Assembly (NCBI RefSeq): GCF_028369105.1
Contig: NZ_JAQNDO010000001.1
Coordinates: 11,192,501 to 11,256,500, forward strand
Direction: 5' to 3'
DNA length: 64,000 nucleotides
From: Polyangium mundeleinium
Lineage (GTDB): Bacteria; Myxococcota_A; Polyangia; Polyangiales; Polyangiaceae
Part shown: piece by piece, positions 46,465 through 53,509 of the stretch
Numbering within the stretch: the first letter of the stretch is position 1
How the letters are laid out: every line of letters begins with the position of its first letter
Program-made: the position numbers and the translations under genes
The notes under the pieces: model-generated
What the model was told of the DNA's origin: nothing
Database searches by the model: none
What the model saw: only the letters and a program-made list of their open reading frames with translations

Positions 46465-46728
46465 GTGCTCGGTGATCTCGTCAAGCGCCTGGTGAACGGC
46501 GTGGTGCTCCTGCTCGGGAGCCTCGCGTTTTTCCTCGTCCCCGTCGGGAGCAAGACGTCAGCGCAGCACGTCGTGGCGATCTTCTCCACGAAGCCGGCGC
46601 GCGAAGCCGCGCAAGCCTTCGCCCACGCGGCGCGCGACCTCGCCCACGAGGTGGCCGCGAACGTCGAACGAGCCAAACGCGCCCCGGCCCTGCCCGACGC
46701 GAAGCCGAAGCCCGCGAACGAGCGTTAG
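46465..46728 (+). CDS. small single-helix membrane protein
   Basis: 87 residues from GTG 46465. One hydrophobic segment at residues ~11-26 (GVVLLLGSLAFFLVPV) after a basic N-terminus, then a helical Ala-rich soluble part (AAQAFAHAARDLAHEVAAN). No known family. It is divergent from the Wzc gene and its last 4 bp overlap the convergent ferredoxin gene. Frame continuity farther upstream is antisense to wzc and is not counted. Confidence 0.55.
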   Translation: MLGDLVKRLVNGVVLLLGSLAFFLVPVGSKTSAQHVVAIFSTKPAREAAQAFAHAARDLAHEVAANVERAKRAPALPDAKPKPANER

Positions 46729-47087
46729 CCCTTCTTCTTGCGCGGGTCCGTGTACTGCGGGTGCTCGTTGTAGAAGGCGTCGAGGCTCTCGCGCGTGATC
46801 TCGGCCTCGATGTCGCCCTCGCGATGGATCTTCGCCTGGCAGCCGAGCCGCGAGCTCAGCCGCACGTCGAAGGCCTTGTCGAGGATGTCCTCCTCGTCCT
46901 CCTCCGCCTCGGAGAGCAGCTCTTTGCCGCGCAACACGTAGACGTGACACGTCGAGCACGCGCACACGCCGCCGCACGCCGAGCCCTCGGGCGCCTCGAC
47001 CTTGCGCGCCGCTTCGAGGAGCGAAGTCCCGATCGGTACCTCGACGTCGTACGTCGACCCGTGCGCCAAAAACCGTACCTTTGCCAT
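46725..47087 (-). CDS. fdx: ISC-type [2Fe-2S] ferredoxin
   Basis: 120 residues. Ligands C38, C44, C47 and C83 (pattern C-x5-C-x2-C, then LGCQAK) match Isc ferredoxins, with an extra Cys at 42. RLSSRLGCQAKI and YNEHPQYTDP are close to bacterial Fdx. It supplies electrons for cluster assembly on IscU. The start overlaps the hscA stop by one base (TGATG). Last gene of the ISC operon. Confidence 0.92.
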   Translation of the reverse strand: MAKVRFLAHGSTYDVEVPIGTSLLEAARKVEAPEGSACGGVCACSTCHVYVLRGKELLSEAEEDEEDILDKAFDVRLSSRLGCQAKIHREGDIEAEITRESLDAFYNEHPQYTDPRKKKG

Positions 47088-49045
47088 CAGCTCCCCGTCC
47101 CGGAGGCGTCGCCGTCCGGTGCATTGTGCCCCGCATGCTCGGCGAGGTGCGCCTCGACGCCCCTCGCCTTCGCCACGGTGCCTTCGATCGCCGTCACGTC
47201 CTTGCCCGCGATCGCCCGAGCGATCGCGCGATCCATGCGCCTGCCGGCCCAGCCGTGCGTGACATCGTCGAGGACCTCGGTGCGGCCGCGGATGATCGCA
47301 GCGCGCGTCCCACGGATGGCCTCTTCGAGCCCGGCGAGCGCCTCGTCGATGCGCGCGCGCTCCTCGTCGCCTTCGAGCAAGTCGGCGTCGGCGACGAGCG
47401 CCTTCCTCGTGGCGAGCACGACCCGCTCGGCCTCGACGCGCGCCTCGATGAGCTGACGTTTTTCGAGGTCCTCCTCGCCGTGATCGAGCGCGGCCATGAG
47501 CATCGCCTCGACCTCCTCGTCCGTGAGGCCGTAGCTCGGCTTGACCTCGACCTTCTGCTCGACGCCCGTCGTGAGCTCGTTCGCAGTCACGCTGAGGAGG
47601 CCGTCCGCATCCACGCGGAACGTGACTTCGAGTCGCGCGAGGCCCGCGGGCATGGGCGGGATTCCTTTGAGGACAAAGCGAGCCAGGGAGCGGCAGTCGA
47701 TCGCGAGCTCGCGCTCCCCCTGGACGATGTGGAGATCGAAGCCGGTCTGGTTGTCGGCGTACGTCGTGAAGGTTTGTCGCGCGCCGGCCGGGATCGTGGT
47801 GTTGCGCGGGAGGATCTTTTCGACGACGCCGCCCATCGTTTCGAGGCCGAGCGAGAGCGGGAGGACGTCGAGCAGGAGGACCTCGTCGGCGCGCTCCTTC
47901 GTGCCGGCGAGGATGTCGGCCTGGATCGCAGCGCCGAGCGCGACGACCTCCTCGGGGTCGAGGTCGCAGAGCGGTGGCTTGCCGAAGAGTTTTTCCACGT
48001 ACTGCCGCACGTACGGCACGCGGGTCGAGCCGCCGACGAGGATGACGCCGTCGAGCTCGTCAGCCGTCACGCCAGCGTCGCGGAGCGCGCGCCGGCAAGC
48101 GACGCCCGTGCGCTCGACGATCGGTTTGATCAACGCCTCGAACTCGTCCCGCGTGACGGTGAGCTTGCGCGTGCCGCCCGGGACCTCGATCTCGGCCTCG
48201 ACACGATCGTTCTCGGTGAGCCCGTGCTTGATCTTGCGCGCCGTATCGAGCGCGAGCCGCACGAGCTCGCGAGGACGGTTCTCCGCGGGAACACCGAGGT
48301 CCTGGAGCAGCCTCTCGGCGAGCGCGCGGTCCATGTCGTCGCCGCCGAGGGCGCTGTCGCCGCCGGTCGAGCGCACCTGGAAGACGCCGTCGTCGAGCAG
48401 GAGGATCGTCACGTCGAAGGTGCCGCCGCCGAGGTCGTACACGGCGAACAGGCCGTTCTTCTGTTTTTCGAGACCATACGCGAGCGCCGCGGCGGTCGGC
48501 TCGTTGAGGAGCCGGAGCACGTCGAGGCCCGCGAGCTTGCCCGCGTCCTTCGTCGCCTGTCGCTGCGCGTCGTCGAAGTACGCAGGCACGGTGATCACCA
48601 CGCCGCCGACGGAGCGCAGCTCGTCCTCGGCGAGCGAACGGAGGACCTTGAGGACCTCGGCCGAGACCTCGACGGGCGTGACCGAGCGATCGCGGATCTT
48701 GAACCGCACGCTCTTCGCCTCCTCGGGCGTCTTCGGCTCGACGAAGTCGTACGTGCCGAGCCTGCGCGTCTCGGGATCGTCGGCCCCTCGCCCCATGAAG
48801 CGCTTCACGCTGACGATGGTCTCGCGCGGAAAATCGACCGCGAGGCGCTGCGCGTCCACGCCGACGATCACGCGGCCGCGCGGGTCGTAGTGCACGACCG
48901 AAGGGACGAGCTTCTCCGCGTTGCAGTCGGTGATGACGACGGGCTTGCCGTCACGGACACGCGCGACGAGCGAGTTCGTGGTGCCGAGGTCGATGCCGAT
49001 CGGCCTCGGGGCCGCCTTGGGGTCGAAGATTTCGAGTAGAGCCAT
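47087..49045 (-). CDS. hscA: HscA, Hsp70-type Fe-S chaperone
   Basis: 652 residues. ATPase blocks GIDLGTTNSLVARV and YDLGGGTFDVTILLL, linker LLLDVLPLSLGLETMGG, and substrate-domain NTTIPAGARQTFTTY. The length is close to E. coli HscA (616) with some C-terminal extension. It uses ATP to help move the cluster from IscU to acceptors with HscB. Flanked by hscB (66 bp upstream) and fdx. Confidence 0.95.
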   Translation of the reverse strand: MALLEIFDPKAAPRPIGIDLGTTNSLVARVRDGKPVVITDCNAEKLVPSVVHYDPRGRVIVGVDAQRLAVDFPRETIVSVKRFMGRGADDPETRRLGTYDFVEPKTPEEAKSVRFKIRDRSVTPVEVSAEVLKVLRSLAEDELRSVGGVVITVPAYFDDAQRQATKDAGKLAGLDVLRLLNEPTAAALAYGLEKQKNGLFAVYDLGGGTFDVTILLLDDGVFQVRSTGGDSALGGDDMDRALAERLLQDLGVPAENRPRELVRLALDTARKIKHGLTENDRVEAEIEVPGGTRKLTVTRDEFEALIKPIVERTGVACRRALRDAGVTADELDGVILVGGSTRVPYVRQYVEKLFGKPPLCDLDPEEVVALGAAIQADILAGTKERADEVLLLDVLPLSLGLETMGGVVEKILPRNTTIPAGARQTFTTYADNQTGFDLHIVQGERELAIDCRSLARFVLKGIPPMPAGLARLEVTFRVDADGLLSVTANELTTGVEQKVEVKPSYGLTDEEVEAMLMAALDHGEEDLEKRQLIEARVEAERVVLATRKALVADADLLEGDEERARIDEALAGLEEAIRGTRAAIIRGRTEVLDDVTHGWAGRRMDRAIARAIAGKDVTAIEGTVAKARGVEAHLAEHAGHNAPDGDASGTGS

Positions 49046-49111: not shown

Positions 49112-49642
49112 TCAGGAAGAGAGCTCTTCCTCGATCGCGCTCGCCTCGTCGAGGAAGCGCCGAAGATAACGGAGCTCGCCGAGCTCGGGCAGGACGACCG
49201 CGAGCTTGGTCGCGTCCGGATCGGACGCTGCAAACTGGCGGCCCATCGACGCGAGCACCTCACGCTCACGCCCGCGGATCGCCTCCGCGAGCGCACCGAC
49301 GGCCGCGAGATCCTTCCGCCGCCGCGCATCCCCGAGCTCCTCGCGCCGCTCCATCATCTCCATCAGGAGATCGGGCGACGGCTTCGGCTCGGCGGTCTCC
49401 CCGACGGGCACGCCGGCGCGGCGAAGGAGCGCCTCGGCGCGGCGGATCGGGTCCTTCAGGACGCGGAAGGCGTCGTTCACTTCGATCGCGCGCGACAGGG
49501 ACAAACGCCGCTCGGCCGCGGGCGCGCCTGCGTAGCGGTCGGGGTGGAGCGCACGCGAGAGGTCACGGTGCCGGCGCGCGAGGTCGTCCGGATCGAGGTC
49601 GAAGCGGGCCTCGACGCCCAGCGTCTGGAAGGGATCGATCAT
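49112..49642 (-). CDS. hscB: HscB co-chaperone (J domain)
   Basis: 176 residues. J domain with the HPD motif in RALHPDRYAG (residues ~32-36), preceded by DPFQTLGVEARFDLD, and a C-terminal three-helix IscU-binding part (LGELRYLRRFLDEASAIEEE). It stimulates HscA ATPase and delivers IscU. Lies 66 bp before hscA and 52 bp after iscA. Confidence 0.93.
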   Translation of the reverse strand: MIDPFQTLGVEARFDLDPDDLARRHRDLSRALHPDRYAGAPAAERRLSLSRAIEVNDAFRVLKDPIRRAEALLRRAGVPVGETAEPKPSPDLLMEMMERREELGDARRRKDLAAVGALAEAIRGREREVLASMGRQFAASDPDATKLAVVLPELGELRYLRRFLDEASAIEEELSS

Positions 49643-49694: not shown

Positions 49695-50114
49695 TCAGCC
49701 GACGGTGAAGGAGTGGCCGCAGCCGCAACGGCTTGCTTCCTTGGGGTTCTTGAACTTGAAGCCCTGGAACATCAGGGTCTTCTCCCAGTCGAGCACCGAG
49801 CCGCCGAGGTAAAGGATGCTCTTCTTGTCGCAGTAGACGCGGACCGTGCTCTTGCCTTCCTCGGGGTACTCGAGGACCAGGTCGCCCTTGCGCGGGGCGT
49901 CGTCGTCGAACTCGATGACGTACGAGAAACCCGAGCAGCCACCGCCCCGGATCCCGATGCGGATCGCAGCGTCGGGCGTGCCGCGCTTGGCGAGGTTCGT
50001 CCGCATCGCGTCGACCGCGGCCGACGTCACGCCGATCGTCTTCTTCGCGTCGGTCGGCGCGGGCGCTCGCTGCTCCGTCTGGTTGCTCTGCGAAACTTCG
50101 CTGGTCGCGTTCAT
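49695..50114 (-). CDS. iscA: IscA-type Fe-S carrier
   Basis: 139 residues from ATG 50114 with GGAG 8 bp upstream. The three cluster cysteines are in IRGGGCSGFSY and RCGCGHSFTV; the core is about 107 residues with a ~30-residue Gln/Thr-rich N-terminal extension. Carries Fe-S clusters or iron between IscU and target apoproteins. Confidence 0.92.
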   Translation of the reverse strand: MNATSEVSQSNQTEQRAPAPTDAKKTIGVTSAAVDAMRTNLAKRGTPDAAIRIGIRGGGCSGFSYVIEFDDDAPRKGDLVLEYPEEGKSTVRVYCDKKSILYLGGSVLDWEKTLMFQGFKFKNPKEASRCGCGHSFTVG

Positions 50115-50149: not shown

Positions 50150-50554
50150 TCACTGCCCCGGGAGGGCCTTCTTCGCCGCCTGCTTCGACCGGAAGTCGGC
50201 GATCGCGCTCTTGATCGCGTCCTCGGCGAGCACCGAGCAGTGGATCTTCACCGGCGGCAGGTGGAGCTCCTCCGCGATCATGCTGTTCTTGATCTGCTCG
50301 GCCTCGTCGATCGTCTTGCCCTTGAGCCACTCGGTGGCGAGGGACGAAGAGGCGATCGCCGAGCCGCAGCCGAACGTCTTGAACTTCGCGTCCTCGATGA
50401 CGCCCGCGTCGCTCACCTTGATCTGCAGGCGCATCACGTCGCCGCAAGCCGGAGCACCGACGAGCCCCGTGCCGACGTGCTCGTCGTTCTTGTCGAGGGT
50501 GCCCACGTTGCGCGGGTTCTCGTAGTGCTCGATGACTTTCTCGCTGTATGCCAT
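50150..50554 (-). CDS. iscU: IscU scaffold protein
   Basis: 134 residues from ATG 50554 behind AGGAGAG. Starts YSEKVIEHYENPRNVG. Cluster ligands: GAPACGDVM (Cys with the stabilising Asp), TFGCGSAIASSS and KIHCSVLAEDAI. Scaffold on which IscS sulfur and iron form the cluster. Typical length for the family. Confidence 0.95.
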   Translation of the reverse strand: MAYSEKVIEHYENPRNVGTLDKNDEHVGTGLVGAPACGDVMRLQIKVSDAGVIEDAKFKTFGCGSAIASSSLATEWLKGKTIDEAEQIKNSMIAEELHLPPVKIHCSVLAEDAIKSAIADFRSKQAAKKALPGQ

Positions 50555-50578: not shown

Positions 50579-51802
50579 TCAATGCGCGGCCCACTGCACG
50601 GAAGCGAGATCGATGCCTTCCTTGTGCATCTCGTAGAGCGGGGACATCTCGCGGAGCTTGTTCACCTTGCGGATCACGAGGTCGGCCACGTAGTCGACCT
50701 CCTCCTCGGTGGTGAAACGACCGAGGCCAAACCGAATCGACGAGTGGGCGAGGTCGTCGCCGATGCCCATCGCGTGCAGCACGTATGAGGGTTCGAGGCT
50801 CGCGCTCGTGCAAGCCGAGCCGCTCGACACCGCCACGTCCTTGATCGCCATGATCATGGCCTCGCCCTCGACGAACGCGAACGAGAGGTTGAGGTTGCCC
50901 GGGAGCCGGTGCTCGAGCGAGCCGTTCACGATGACCTCGTCGAGCTCGCTCGTGATGCGCCGGCGGAGTTTTTCACGCAGCGCGAGGATGCGCTCGCTCT
51001 CCGCGCGTCCCTCCTCCAGCATGATCTCCGCGGCCCTGGCGAAGCCCACGATGCCCGGCACGTTCAACGTGCCCGAGCGCATGCCGTACTCGTGCCCGCC
51101 ACCGTCCATCTGCGCGACGAGGCGCACGCGCGGCTTCGACCGGCGCACGTAGAGACCACCAACGCCTTTGGGCCCATACATCTTGTGCGCGGTGATCGAG
51201 GCGAGATCGACGTGCATCGCCTCGACGTCGAAGGGCACCTTGCCCACGCCCTGCACCGCGTCGGAGTGCAGAAGGACGCCGCGTGACCGCGTGATCTTGC
51301 CGATCTCCGCGATCGGCTGCACCGTGCCGACCTCGTTGTTCGCGAGCATCACCGAGACGAGGATCGTCTTGTCCGTGATCGCCTTCGCGACGTCGTCAGG
51401 ATCGACGCGACCATCCTTGCCGACGGGCAGGTACGTCACGTCATAGCCCTGCTTCTCCAGGCGCTTGCACGTGTCGAGCACGGCCTTGTGCTCGATCACC
51501 GTGGTGACGATGTGGTTGCCCTTCTCCTTGTAGAGCTCGGCGACGCCCTTGATCGCGAGGTTGTTGCTCTCGGTCGCGCCCGACGTGAAGACGATCTCCT
51601 TCGGATTCGACGCGCCCACGAGCTTCGCCAGGATCTCCCGCGAGCGCGAGACCGCTTCCTCCGCCGTCCACCCGAACACGTGGCTCCGGCTGGCCGCGTT
51701 GCCGAACCGGGCGTTGAAATACGGCAGCATCGCCTCCACGACGCGCGGATCGACCGGCGTCGTGGCGTGGTAGTCCATGTAAATCGGGATCTGGATCGAC
51801 AT
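50579..51802 (-). CDS. iscS: cysteine desulfurase IscS
   Basis: 407 residues from ATG 51802; an in-frame start at 51826 precedes no conserved residue. [20 protein letters not shown] starts the fold-type I PLP domain; the Schiff-base Lys is in [12 protein letters not shown]; the mobile Cys loop is [14 protein letters not shown]. Donates persulfide to IscU. Follows the merR-type gene by 27 bp and precedes iscU by 24 bp. Confidence 0.95.
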
Positions 51803-51829: not shown

Positions 51830-52477
51830 CTAGCGGTCCGCGCCACCTCGGGAGTGCCCGTTTCCGCCGTGAATTCCGGCCACCAGCTCGGGCTCGGCCT
51901 GCGTCCGATCATGCACGTTGCAGTCGGTGCAAGCGGCCACGAGCTCGTCGGGTGCACACGTGTCGCACGTGTCGAGGTAATCGATGCTCGCCTCGAGCTC
52001 ACGCTCGAGCGAGGAGAGCCGCGCGATCTGCGCGCGCGTCTCTTCGAGCTTCTGCTGGTAGATCGACCGGACCTGCGCCATCGCCTCGGGGGCCGAAGGC
52101 GCGCTCTCCCAGAACGCGACGATCTCCTGGATCTGCGAGAGGCTGAGGCCGAGATCGTGCAGCTTGCCGATCCACCGGACCCGCGTGACCGCCGCCTGAT
52201 CGTAGAGCCGATACCGGCCCTTCGACCGCGCGTGCGGCCGGAGCAAACCCACGTCCTCGTAGTGGTGGATCGCTCGCACCGTCTTGCCGACGGCCCGCGC
52301 GATGTCCCCGACCTGGAGAAGGCGCTCGGCCCCGTGCCCGTCCCGATCCTCGTCGAGATCCGGCGGCACGAGCCCCACGTCGGCCCGATGCGCACCCGCA
52401 CGAACGCCATTCGGGAGAGGAAGGACACCTCTCTCGTCGAGTCCACGCGCTAAAGGTAGGTGGCGAATCGGCCGCAT
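51830..52477 (-). CDS. MerR-family regulator with C-terminal Cys cluster
   Basis: 215 residues from ATG 52477, which has GGAG six bases upstream. The MerR DNA-binding domain begins at LLQVGDIARAVGKTVRAIHH (about residue 53), later RPHARSKGRYRLYDQ, and a long dimerisation helix (IYQQKLEETRAQIARL). The C-terminus has TCDTCAPDELVAACTDCN, pattern C-x2-C-x8-C-x2-C, a likely metal or Fe-S site. The first ~50 residues have no homology and may be untranslated, so a start at a downstream GTG is possible. As the first gene of the ISC operon it probably controls it, in the place that IscR holds in other bacteria. Confidence 0.8.
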   Translation of the reverse strand: MRPIRHLPLARGLDERGVLPLPNGVRAGAHRADVGLVPPDLDEDRDGHGAERLLQVGDIARAVGKTVRAIHHYEDVGLLRPHARSKGRYRLYDQAAVTRVRWIGKLHDLGLSLSQIQEIVAFWESAPSAPEAMAQVRSIYQQKLEETRAQIARLSSLERELEASIDYLDTCDTCAPDELVAACTDCNVHDRTQAEPELVAGIHGGNGHSRGGADR

Positions 52478-52487
52478 CCAAAACTCC

Positions 52488-52511
52488 AACCCTCACGCAT
52501 GCGTGAGGGTT
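52488..52511. promoter_or_regulatory. 24-bp palindrome, probable MerR operator
   Basis: Perfect inverted repeat with half-site AACCCTCACGCA, centred between 52499 and 52500, in the gap between the divergent merR-type gene and the 52568 gene. Its edge is 11 bp from the merR ATG and 57 bp from the other start. MerR regulators bind such palindromes between the -35 and -10 boxes. No clear -35/-10 pair is visible. A further weak inverted repeat (CCTAA...TTTAGG) lies at about 52513-52530. Confidence 0.7.
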
Positions 52512-52567
52512 ACCTAACGGAAGGTTTAGGCGCCCCTCGGGAGGCTGTCAACCGGAGCAGGACGAAA

Positions 52568-53509
52568 ATGCATGCGATCGAGCTGAGGAGGCGCGCGATC
52601 CCTGAGGTGCTCGCGCTCGGCCCCGCGCTTGTCGAGCGAGCCGAGCAGGCCCAGGCGGCGCACCTCGCGCTGAGCCTGGTCGACGGAGCCGCGGTGGTGC
52701 TCGGCGCGGCGCAGCGAGCAGGCCGCGTCTTGGACCTCGCAGCGTGCGCGCAGAGGGGCATCCCGATCCTGCGGCGCGCGACGACGGGGACGGCAGCCTG
52801 GCTCGGCGGCCGGGGCCTCGTGGTGACGCTCGCGTTGCCGCACGTCGCAGCGCTCGTCGCAGACGCGACGCCGCGGACGCTGCTGAACCGGAACGTGCGC
52901 CCGCTCCTCGGCGCGTTGACCCGCGCAGGAATGCTCGCACATTATTTCGGACGCGAATGGATCACGCTGCGTCGTCGGCCGGCGGCGCTGCTCGGCTTCG
53001 ACGTCGCCGCGTCGGGTGCCGTCCTCGTGGAGGCGTTCGTCGGGTACGACGCGGCGATCGCGTTGCCCGACGAGATCACGACCGAGAGCGAGCGAGCTGT
53101 CGATCGGTTCCTCGGCAAGAAGCCCGCGTCCCTCGCCGAACTCGCGGCCGACGCGCCGCTCGACCTCGATCGGTTCGCGCACGCTCTTCTCGATGCGTTG
53201 CGCGCACGCACCGAGCCCACGATCACGACGCCGACGATCGGAGCGGACGAGCTCGACACGCGCCCCTTCGCCCCGATCGAGCGCGCGCGCGATCCCGTCC
53301 CCGAAAGATTGCTCCTCAAACCAGCCGTGCGTGTCCCGATCGGCTGGATCGAATCCGCAGTCGAGCCCGATGGTGCACGGCGCGCATGGCTCGGCGGAGA
53401 CGTGCTCGCGCCGCGCTGGGCGCTCGCGCGCATCGCAACCCAAGGAGACGCGGGCCTGCCGGAGATCGCGCTCGAAGGCGCGACGATGGCCGATCTGCTC
53501 ACCTGCTGA
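52568..53509 (+). CDS. hypothetical protein, possible LplA-like fold
   Basis: 313 residues from ATG 52568, behind GGAG. RRATTGTAAWLGGRGLVVTL resembles the RRxSGGG region of lipoate/biotin ligases, and LLNRNVRPLLGALTRAG with a conserved-looking RPAALLGFDVAASGAVLVEAF follows the same order, but the key Lys of LplA is not evident. The similarity is weak and unverified. It is divergent from the ISC operon across the palindrome and may share its control. Confidence 0.45.
   Translation: MHAIELRRRAIPEVLALGPALVERAEQAQAAHLALSLVDGAAVVLGAAQRAGRVLDLAACAQRGIPILRRATTGTAAWLGGRGLVVTLALPHVAALVADATPRTLLNRNVRPLLGALTRAGMLAHYFGREWITLRRRPAALLGFDVAASGAVLVEAFVGYDAAIALPDEITTESERAVDRFLGKKPASLAELAADAPLDLDRFAHALLDALRARTEPTITTPTIGADELDTRPFAPIERARDPVPERLLLKPAVRVPIGWIESAVEPDGARRAWLGGDVLAPRWALARIATQGDAGLPEIALEGATMADLLTC

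Follow-up and report, generated by a model that had tools for sequence, protein, structure and literature searches.

A MerR-family protein with a four-cysteine loop very probably autoregulates the isc operon of Polyangium mundeleinium and its relatives

Which protein controls iron-sulfur cluster assembly in Polyangium mundeleinium, where the first gene of the isc operon encodes a MerR-family protein and not IscR? The window, i.e. the whole 64-kb stretch of DNA that was analysed (C1:11192501–11256500 of a 13.25-Mb genome in two contigs), contains a full isc operon on the minus strand, headed by a MerR-family gene (51830–52477; Pfam MerR_1 and MerR-DNA-bind), with a 24-bp palindrome over the merR promoter. 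The regulator gene is followed by iscS (cysteine desulfurase, 50579–51802; NF010611, 665.7 bits), iscU (scaffold, 50150–50554; TIGR01999, 229.7 bits), an iscA-type A-type carrier gene (49695–50114; PF01521, and TIGR00049 at 91.4 bits), hscB (49112–49642; PF07743, and TIGR00714 at 68.8 bits) and hscA (47087–49045; TIGR01991, 812.7 bits), all above the respective cut-offs, and by fdx, for a [2Fe-2S] ferredoxin (46725–47087; PF00111, and TIGR02007 at 77.7 bits, below the cut-off of 132.1), all on the minus strand. No IscR gene is present in the merR-isc operon, as the initial annotation had stated. IscR and RisR, the ISC regulators for which we found descriptions, both belong to the Rrf2 family. 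Judged on titles and abstract openings, the literature searches yielded no report of isc being regulated by a MerR protein; both MerR proteins and feedback regulators of Fe-S assembly are known, and their union at isc did not come up in these searches.

The regulator matches MerR_1 with an E value of 9.3e-15 and MerR-DNA-bind with 4e-11, and scores above the cut-offs of PF13411, PF09278 and PF00376, i.e. the N-terminal MerR winged helix-turn-helix and the dimerisation helix are both present. Its Pfam matches are to MerR families only, the Rrf2 domain (PF02082) being absent, and its best named match is from Polyangium fumosum (98%). It falls below the cut-off of every named subfamily: CueR (70.2 against 147.4 bits), CadR-PbrR (60.8 against 151.45) and SoxR (41.8 against 116.9). 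An IscR or RisR hidden elsewhere in the genome was considered and rejected: the sole Rrf2 match (E ≤ 0.001) lies away from isc, before a cysteine-synthase gene, and has, by eye, two cysteines in its domain. A cysteine-synthase set adjoins the Rrf2 gene in this genome (L229, 4912–5817), and another stands behind an isc-type MerR operator in a relative (G214; L274, 4133–6967).

Conservation of the gene and its place was examined with a 162-residue core as the query. Among 60 genomes of the family, 58 gave some match, 54 an ortholog (at least 104.9 bits, the next match listed scoring 74.6) and six none; in one of the six (G030) the contig begins just before iscU. Fifty of the 54 orthologs were fetched, and all 50 lie immediately ahead of iscS in the same orientation; between the merR and iscS matches there is at one extreme an overlap of 9 bases and at the other a gap of 219. 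In a collection of named relatives (the best 80 of 239), iscS adjoins merR at 79 of 80 loci, and the lone exception has a contig edge within 160 bases of the gene. These relatives are labelled myxobacteria, delta-proteobacteria or Proteobacteria and include Sorangium, Polyangium, Minicystis, Labilithrix and Sandaracinaceae. Thirty ortholog loci from outside the family were also read: at 23 the gene is the first of an isc operon (iscU being present in 22 of these), at three it stands before a lone iscS-like gene and at four before a sigma-70-type gene, with no isc gene. Pairwise distances of MerR track those of IscS (r = 0.70) and HscA (r = 0.75) over 64 loci, as for co-inherited genes. A 66-row tree contains an isc-linked clade of 55, with two side groups inside and support of 100/100; the SoxR row sits on a very long branch and its placement is unsure.

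Some members of the wider group occur in other settings. In one family (L188, L190, L192, L193) a second isc-type MerR copy with its own operator precedes a sigma-70-type (ECF-like) gene in four of four cases, and at three loci (L194, L195, L196) the MerR gene is followed by a lone iscS-like gene (38–39% identity), two of these three genomes (G172, G213) also having SufB. A paralogous MerR group carrying the same C-x2-C...C-x2-C loop lies away from isc (L034, L209–L211, L213–L217), one member in the same genome at C1:11738011–11738424 (L034). Most of these paralogs have an LPRAxRLLW-like tail, and they are without the isc operator; their neighbours include GTP cyclohydrolase I (L034, L209) and LON-domain genes (L209, L214, L216).

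The candidate operator is a perfect 24-bp palindrome, AACCCTCACGCATGCGTGAGGGTT, at 52488–52511 (no strand being assigned), as had been noted from the sequence. It is the sole copy in the window: no second copy of AACCCTCACGCATGCGTGAGGGTT was found in the 64 kb at up to three mismatches, and none in 100 shuffles. For the relatives, a pattern with 20 fixed bases, ACCCTNACGCATACGTNAGGGT, was scanned at a threshold of 14 over the upstream regions of 102 different loci. A family operator of the form ACCCTNACG-N4-CGTNAGGGT was present in 101 of 102, the threshold being reached by 4 of 510 dinucleotide shuffles and, within iscS, by 1 of 98 stretches; the lone miss belongs to a genome represented by L022 and L094, L094 scoring 10 of 20. 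A search for the half-site in relatives had been recommended as a check; conservation attaches not to the exact half-site AACCCTCACGCA but to the family consensus ACCCTNACG. Beyond the family, 22 of 23 isc loci score at least 14 and the remaining one (L182) 13; the four sigma-linked merR copies all reach 14 or more, and the three copies with a lone iscS-like gene have no operator match. Chance was rejected as the origin of the palindrome by the shuffles, the upstream-region scan and a strict-pattern genome search described below. Two other assignments of regulatory sites were also rejected. A divergent lipoyl-ligase-like gene (52568–53509, plus strand; PF21948, 1.5e-7) has its intergenic region in common with merR-isc; its catalytic lysine is hard to spot by eye, and Polyangium shares this divergent arrangement with a small number of relatives (L072, L077, L080). 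An LplA-like match is present at 8 of 80 named loci, and near in six, compared with an operator at nearly all, which argues against the operator being that gene's. For the RisR-type site GAC-N7-GTC, two matches were found in L002 against 2.22 expected by chance, neither at the merR promoter.

A strict operator, ACYCTNACSNNNNCGTNAGRGT, was then searched with zero mismatches in 80 genomes having the gene, of 100 chosen. It occurs 47 times in 45 of the 80 genomes and is missed in 35; 45 of the sites adjoin an isc-type merR by coordinates, and the reversed pattern gave no site in the 80 genomes. Of the two extra sites, one precedes erpA (above the curated ErpA cut-off; G276) and the other a cysM-like gene with JAB, ThiS and ThiF genes behind it (G214), the gene set of a thiocarboxylate cysteine pathway; no strict site precedes an efflux gene. 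A clear operator before erpA was seen in just 2 of 22 genomes, the other 20 scoring below 14. In the P. mundeleinium genome a longer pattern, with up to three mismatches, matches the isc site alone; a 24-bp pattern with three mismatches misses 4 of 14 genomes. Because 45 of 47 strict sites lie beside merR and the genome itself has a single site, the regulator seems to serve isc almost exclusively, and the rare extra sites seem to point to Fe-S or sulfur genes. The cysM site would suit a sensor of thiol, persulfide or cysteine status, whose cysteine pairs would react with sulfane sulfur or oxidants and so report the supply of sulfur for IscS; CxxC pairs are redox-prone. Only this one of the 47 strict sites hints at sulfur supply, however, and another precedes erpA, which encodes an Fe-S carrier, so that we regard such a sensor as distinctly improbable.

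The position of the operator within the promoter was assessed over 101 aligned promoters. The best-scoring −35/−10 pair begins three bases ahead of the motif, has a spacer of 19 bp, reads toward merR and averages 4.72 of 12 matches; the mirror orientation with the same spacing averages 4.38, as expected of a palindrome. The advantage of the merR direction is small, and the hexamers are weak. In the window the putative elements are GTAACC (−35, 52508–52513) and TGGAGT (−10, 52483–52488), both weak matches on the minus strand, between which the putative operator would sit inside the 19-bp spacer. Spacers of 19–20 bp are described as typical of MerR promoters (PMC9909328).

In 95 of 101 relatives the reading frame stays open as far as the operator, and in-frame ATG codons occur most often 20–24 nucleotides beyond the operator centre. 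The open reading frame from TTG 52489 (51830–52489, minus strand) encodes 219 residues, and ATG 52477 is the more likely start, judged from these comparisons; the merR mRNA would then be almost leaderless. Nucleotide-by-codon comparison of the N-terminal extension was confounded by indels, the in-frame translation being the informative one.

Taken together, these data link a MerR regulator, an operator and the isc operon lineage-wide, and very probably the regulator acts on its own promoter. The initial annotation had suggested a MerR protein that regulates itself and isc in the place of IscR, and this now appears very likely, the regulator and operator being kept beside isc in relatives (79 of 80 named loci and 101 of 102 upstream regions). 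A simple repressor, or an autoregulator that acts constitutively, in which the cysteines only stabilise the dimer while isc follows demand by another route, would also make sense of a palindrome in a promoter, which may simply occlude RNA polymerase. Such a protein would be hard to reconcile with four cysteines invariant in 50 of 50 orthologs at 49–100% identity and with a MerR-type spacer of 19 bp, and we consider it highly improbable. The gene, its operator, its position, the lineage-wide linkage and the near-private target are supported by the sequence comparisons; DNA binding, DNA distortion, cluster ligation and the sign of the response are what we infer from them.

What the regulator senses would depend on its C-terminal cysteines. 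The motif has the exact form C-D-T-C-x8-C-T-D-C (C175, C178, C187 and C190, numbered in the 219-residue open reading frame; 51920–51967, minus strand, at the end of the dimerisation helix), in agreement with the C-x2-C-x8-C-x2-C first read from the sequence. The four cysteines that are invariant among the 50 family orthologs are also kept in all 50 rows of a second alignment (A2). Two or three residues separate the cysteines of the first pair (C-x2-C or C-x3-C), usually eight residues lie between the two pairs, and a histidine stands three residues beyond the motif in 46 of 50; outside the family, one locus (L186) is without the fourth, last cysteine. Core residues 60–95 contain no cysteine in 49 of 50 orthologs, and the column equivalent to Cys77 of metal-sensing MerR proteins, located by alignment with CadR, holds methionine or alanine. 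Cys77 is the metal ligand of CadR and marks the start of the dimerisation helix in divalent sensors. An AF2 model (mean pLDDT 90.9) has a long dimerisation helix (76–114) followed by the cysteine loop, and the closest solved chains include CadR (Z 12.6) and SoxR (2zhh, Z 12.2), a tie. Because the Cys77 column is without cysteine and the modelled cysteine loop comes after the helix, the model favours a metal or cluster site that would lie within the C-terminal loop, as in SoxR, and would fit a cluster and zinc alike. A classical metal sensor was rejected on the curated profiles, all below cut-off, and on the missing Cys77 counterpart.

Were the four cysteines to bind zinc or a different metal, structurally or as a sensor, isc would answer to metal stress and not to Fe-S status. 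The C-x2-C-x8-C-x2-C spacing is compatible with a zinc knuckle, and it differs from that of SoxR, as had been remarked from the start (x2-x8-x2 compared with x2-x1-x5), and it suits a zinc site as well; paralogs away from isc share the motif, which is thus not specific to Fe-S control. Both points count against Fe-S sensing, and the zinc reading gains further from the histidine three residues past the motif and from the best named profiles and structures, which are those of metal sensors (CueR, CadR, MerR). On the other side stand the missing counterpart of CadR Cys77, with no cysteine in core residues 60–95 in 49 of 50 orthologs, and operator sites that precede Fe-S and cysteine genes, never an efflux gene. 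We regard zinc or another metal as rather unlikely.

On balance we favour a dedicated, autoregulatory MerR regulator of ISC that senses Fe-S status. A cluster, most simply a SoxR-like [2Fe-2S] one, would be ligated by the four C-terminal cysteines where the dimerisation helix ends. Lack of iron, or oxidants, would cause loss or oxidation of the cluster and so an altered dimer, and isc transcription would rise; once cluster supply was restored, the regulator would return to its held state. Besides the cysteine spacing and the paralogs, several observations weigh against this reading: the orthologs before a sigma-factor gene, those with no operator match or below its threshold, the locus without the fourth cysteine, the six family genomes that gave no ortholog, the six MerR genomes with SufB, the weak hexamers, the genomes missed by the operator patterns and the rarity of sites before erpA.

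How far such a regulator extends was assessed in 235 sampled Myxococcota genomes (MerR at 120 bits or more, HscA above cut-off, SufB at E 1e-100), of which 67 have the MerR, 58 HscA and 120 SufB. MerR and HscA occur together in 56, MerR without HscA in 11, and HscA without MerR in two, one of which is the genome with the contig break before iscU. SufB is absent from 61 of the 67 MerR genomes and accompanies the MerR in six; when 17 MerR genomes were tested further at E 0.001, none of them gave a SufB match. HscA (E 1e-200) and SufB (1e-100) were found together in none of the 235 genomes; M. xanthus reportedly has both (PMC9973013). Fifteen other genomes have a lower-scoring HscA with neither SufB nor an isc-type MerR, and in the seven of these sister isc operons that were read, an Rrf2 gene stands immediately before iscS in three and none was found in four. 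A study of M. xanthus describes both ISC and SUF, no iscR ortholog in the isc locus, and repression of both isc and suf by RisR, the Rrf2-family product of a gene located with suf (PMC9973013). The idea of a 'myxobacterial' variant of IscR control may therefore hold for a large branch of soil myxobacteria but is too broad as worded, since M. xanthus uses RisR and only 6 of the 120 SufB genomes have the isc MerR. Given that SufB is mostly absent, that three of the seven sister isc operons have an Rrf2 gene and that M. xanthus has RisR, ISC in this branch seems to have recruited separately an autoregulatory MerR regulator, with a SoxR-box-like operator and a promoter spacer of 19 bp; on this comparative evidence a different regulator would have come to head isc, perhaps at about the time SUF was lost.

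The conservation of a MerR protein in this position across many Myxococcota families, SufB being mostly missing from them, suggests that the ISC feedback loop was rebuilt with other parts. IscR and RisR are thought to leave the isc promoter upon cluster loss. It is conceivable, and we propose it tentatively as possible rather than probable, that a further Fe-S assembly feedback sensor exists beside the Rrf2 proteins (IscR, RisR) and the ArsR-like SUF regulator: one built on MerR, unrelated to these, with a new four-cysteine cluster site, which would stay bound and twist the promoter to activate isc on cluster loss or oxidation, in a lineage most of whose members have ISC but not SUF. With the operon the same, derepression could be compared cleanly with activation by DNA distortion; the proteins form a new family in which to seek a non-SoxR cluster site in a MerR scaffold, and the cultured hosts (Sorangium, Polyangium, Minicystis) make the system testable.

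Among known systems, SoxR is similar with respect to the MerR fold (2zhh, Z 12.2), the cysteines after the dimerisation helix and the recognition helix A-[IL]-H-x-Y-E, which is T-I-R-Y-Y-E in CadR and Bacillus megaterium MerR; the L034 row of the SoxR comparison is in a wrong frame and was set aside. In half-site and spacing the operator of the window, CCTCA-N8-TGAGG, is identical to that of E. coli soxS; the family consensus frame is CCTNA-N8-TNAGG. In contrast, identity to SoxR is 25% (41.8 bits against the cut-off of 116.9), its target is soxS instead of isc, and its cysteines, which are its cluster ligands, are spaced C-x2-C-x-C-x5-C, compared with C-x2/3-C-x8-C-x2-C here. CadR, CueR and MerR are among the best sequence and fold matches and share the logic of a 19–20-bp spacer (PMC9909328), whereas the regulator falls below all curated cut-offs (best CueR, 70.2 against 147.4 bits), has no Cys77-type ligand and heads an operon with no efflux or detoxification gene. 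E. coli IscR is likewise the first isc gene, with presumed autoregulation and feedback on ISC, but it belongs to the Rrf2 family, an unrelated protein with an unrelated operator; the holo form of IscR is described as repressing isc (PMC9973013). RisR is an isc regulator from the same phylum, reported in the same source to bind an Fe-S cluster and to respond to iron lack and oxidants; it differs in its Rrf2 fold, its GAC-N7-GTC site and its gene, which is encoded with suf and not with isc (PMC9973013).
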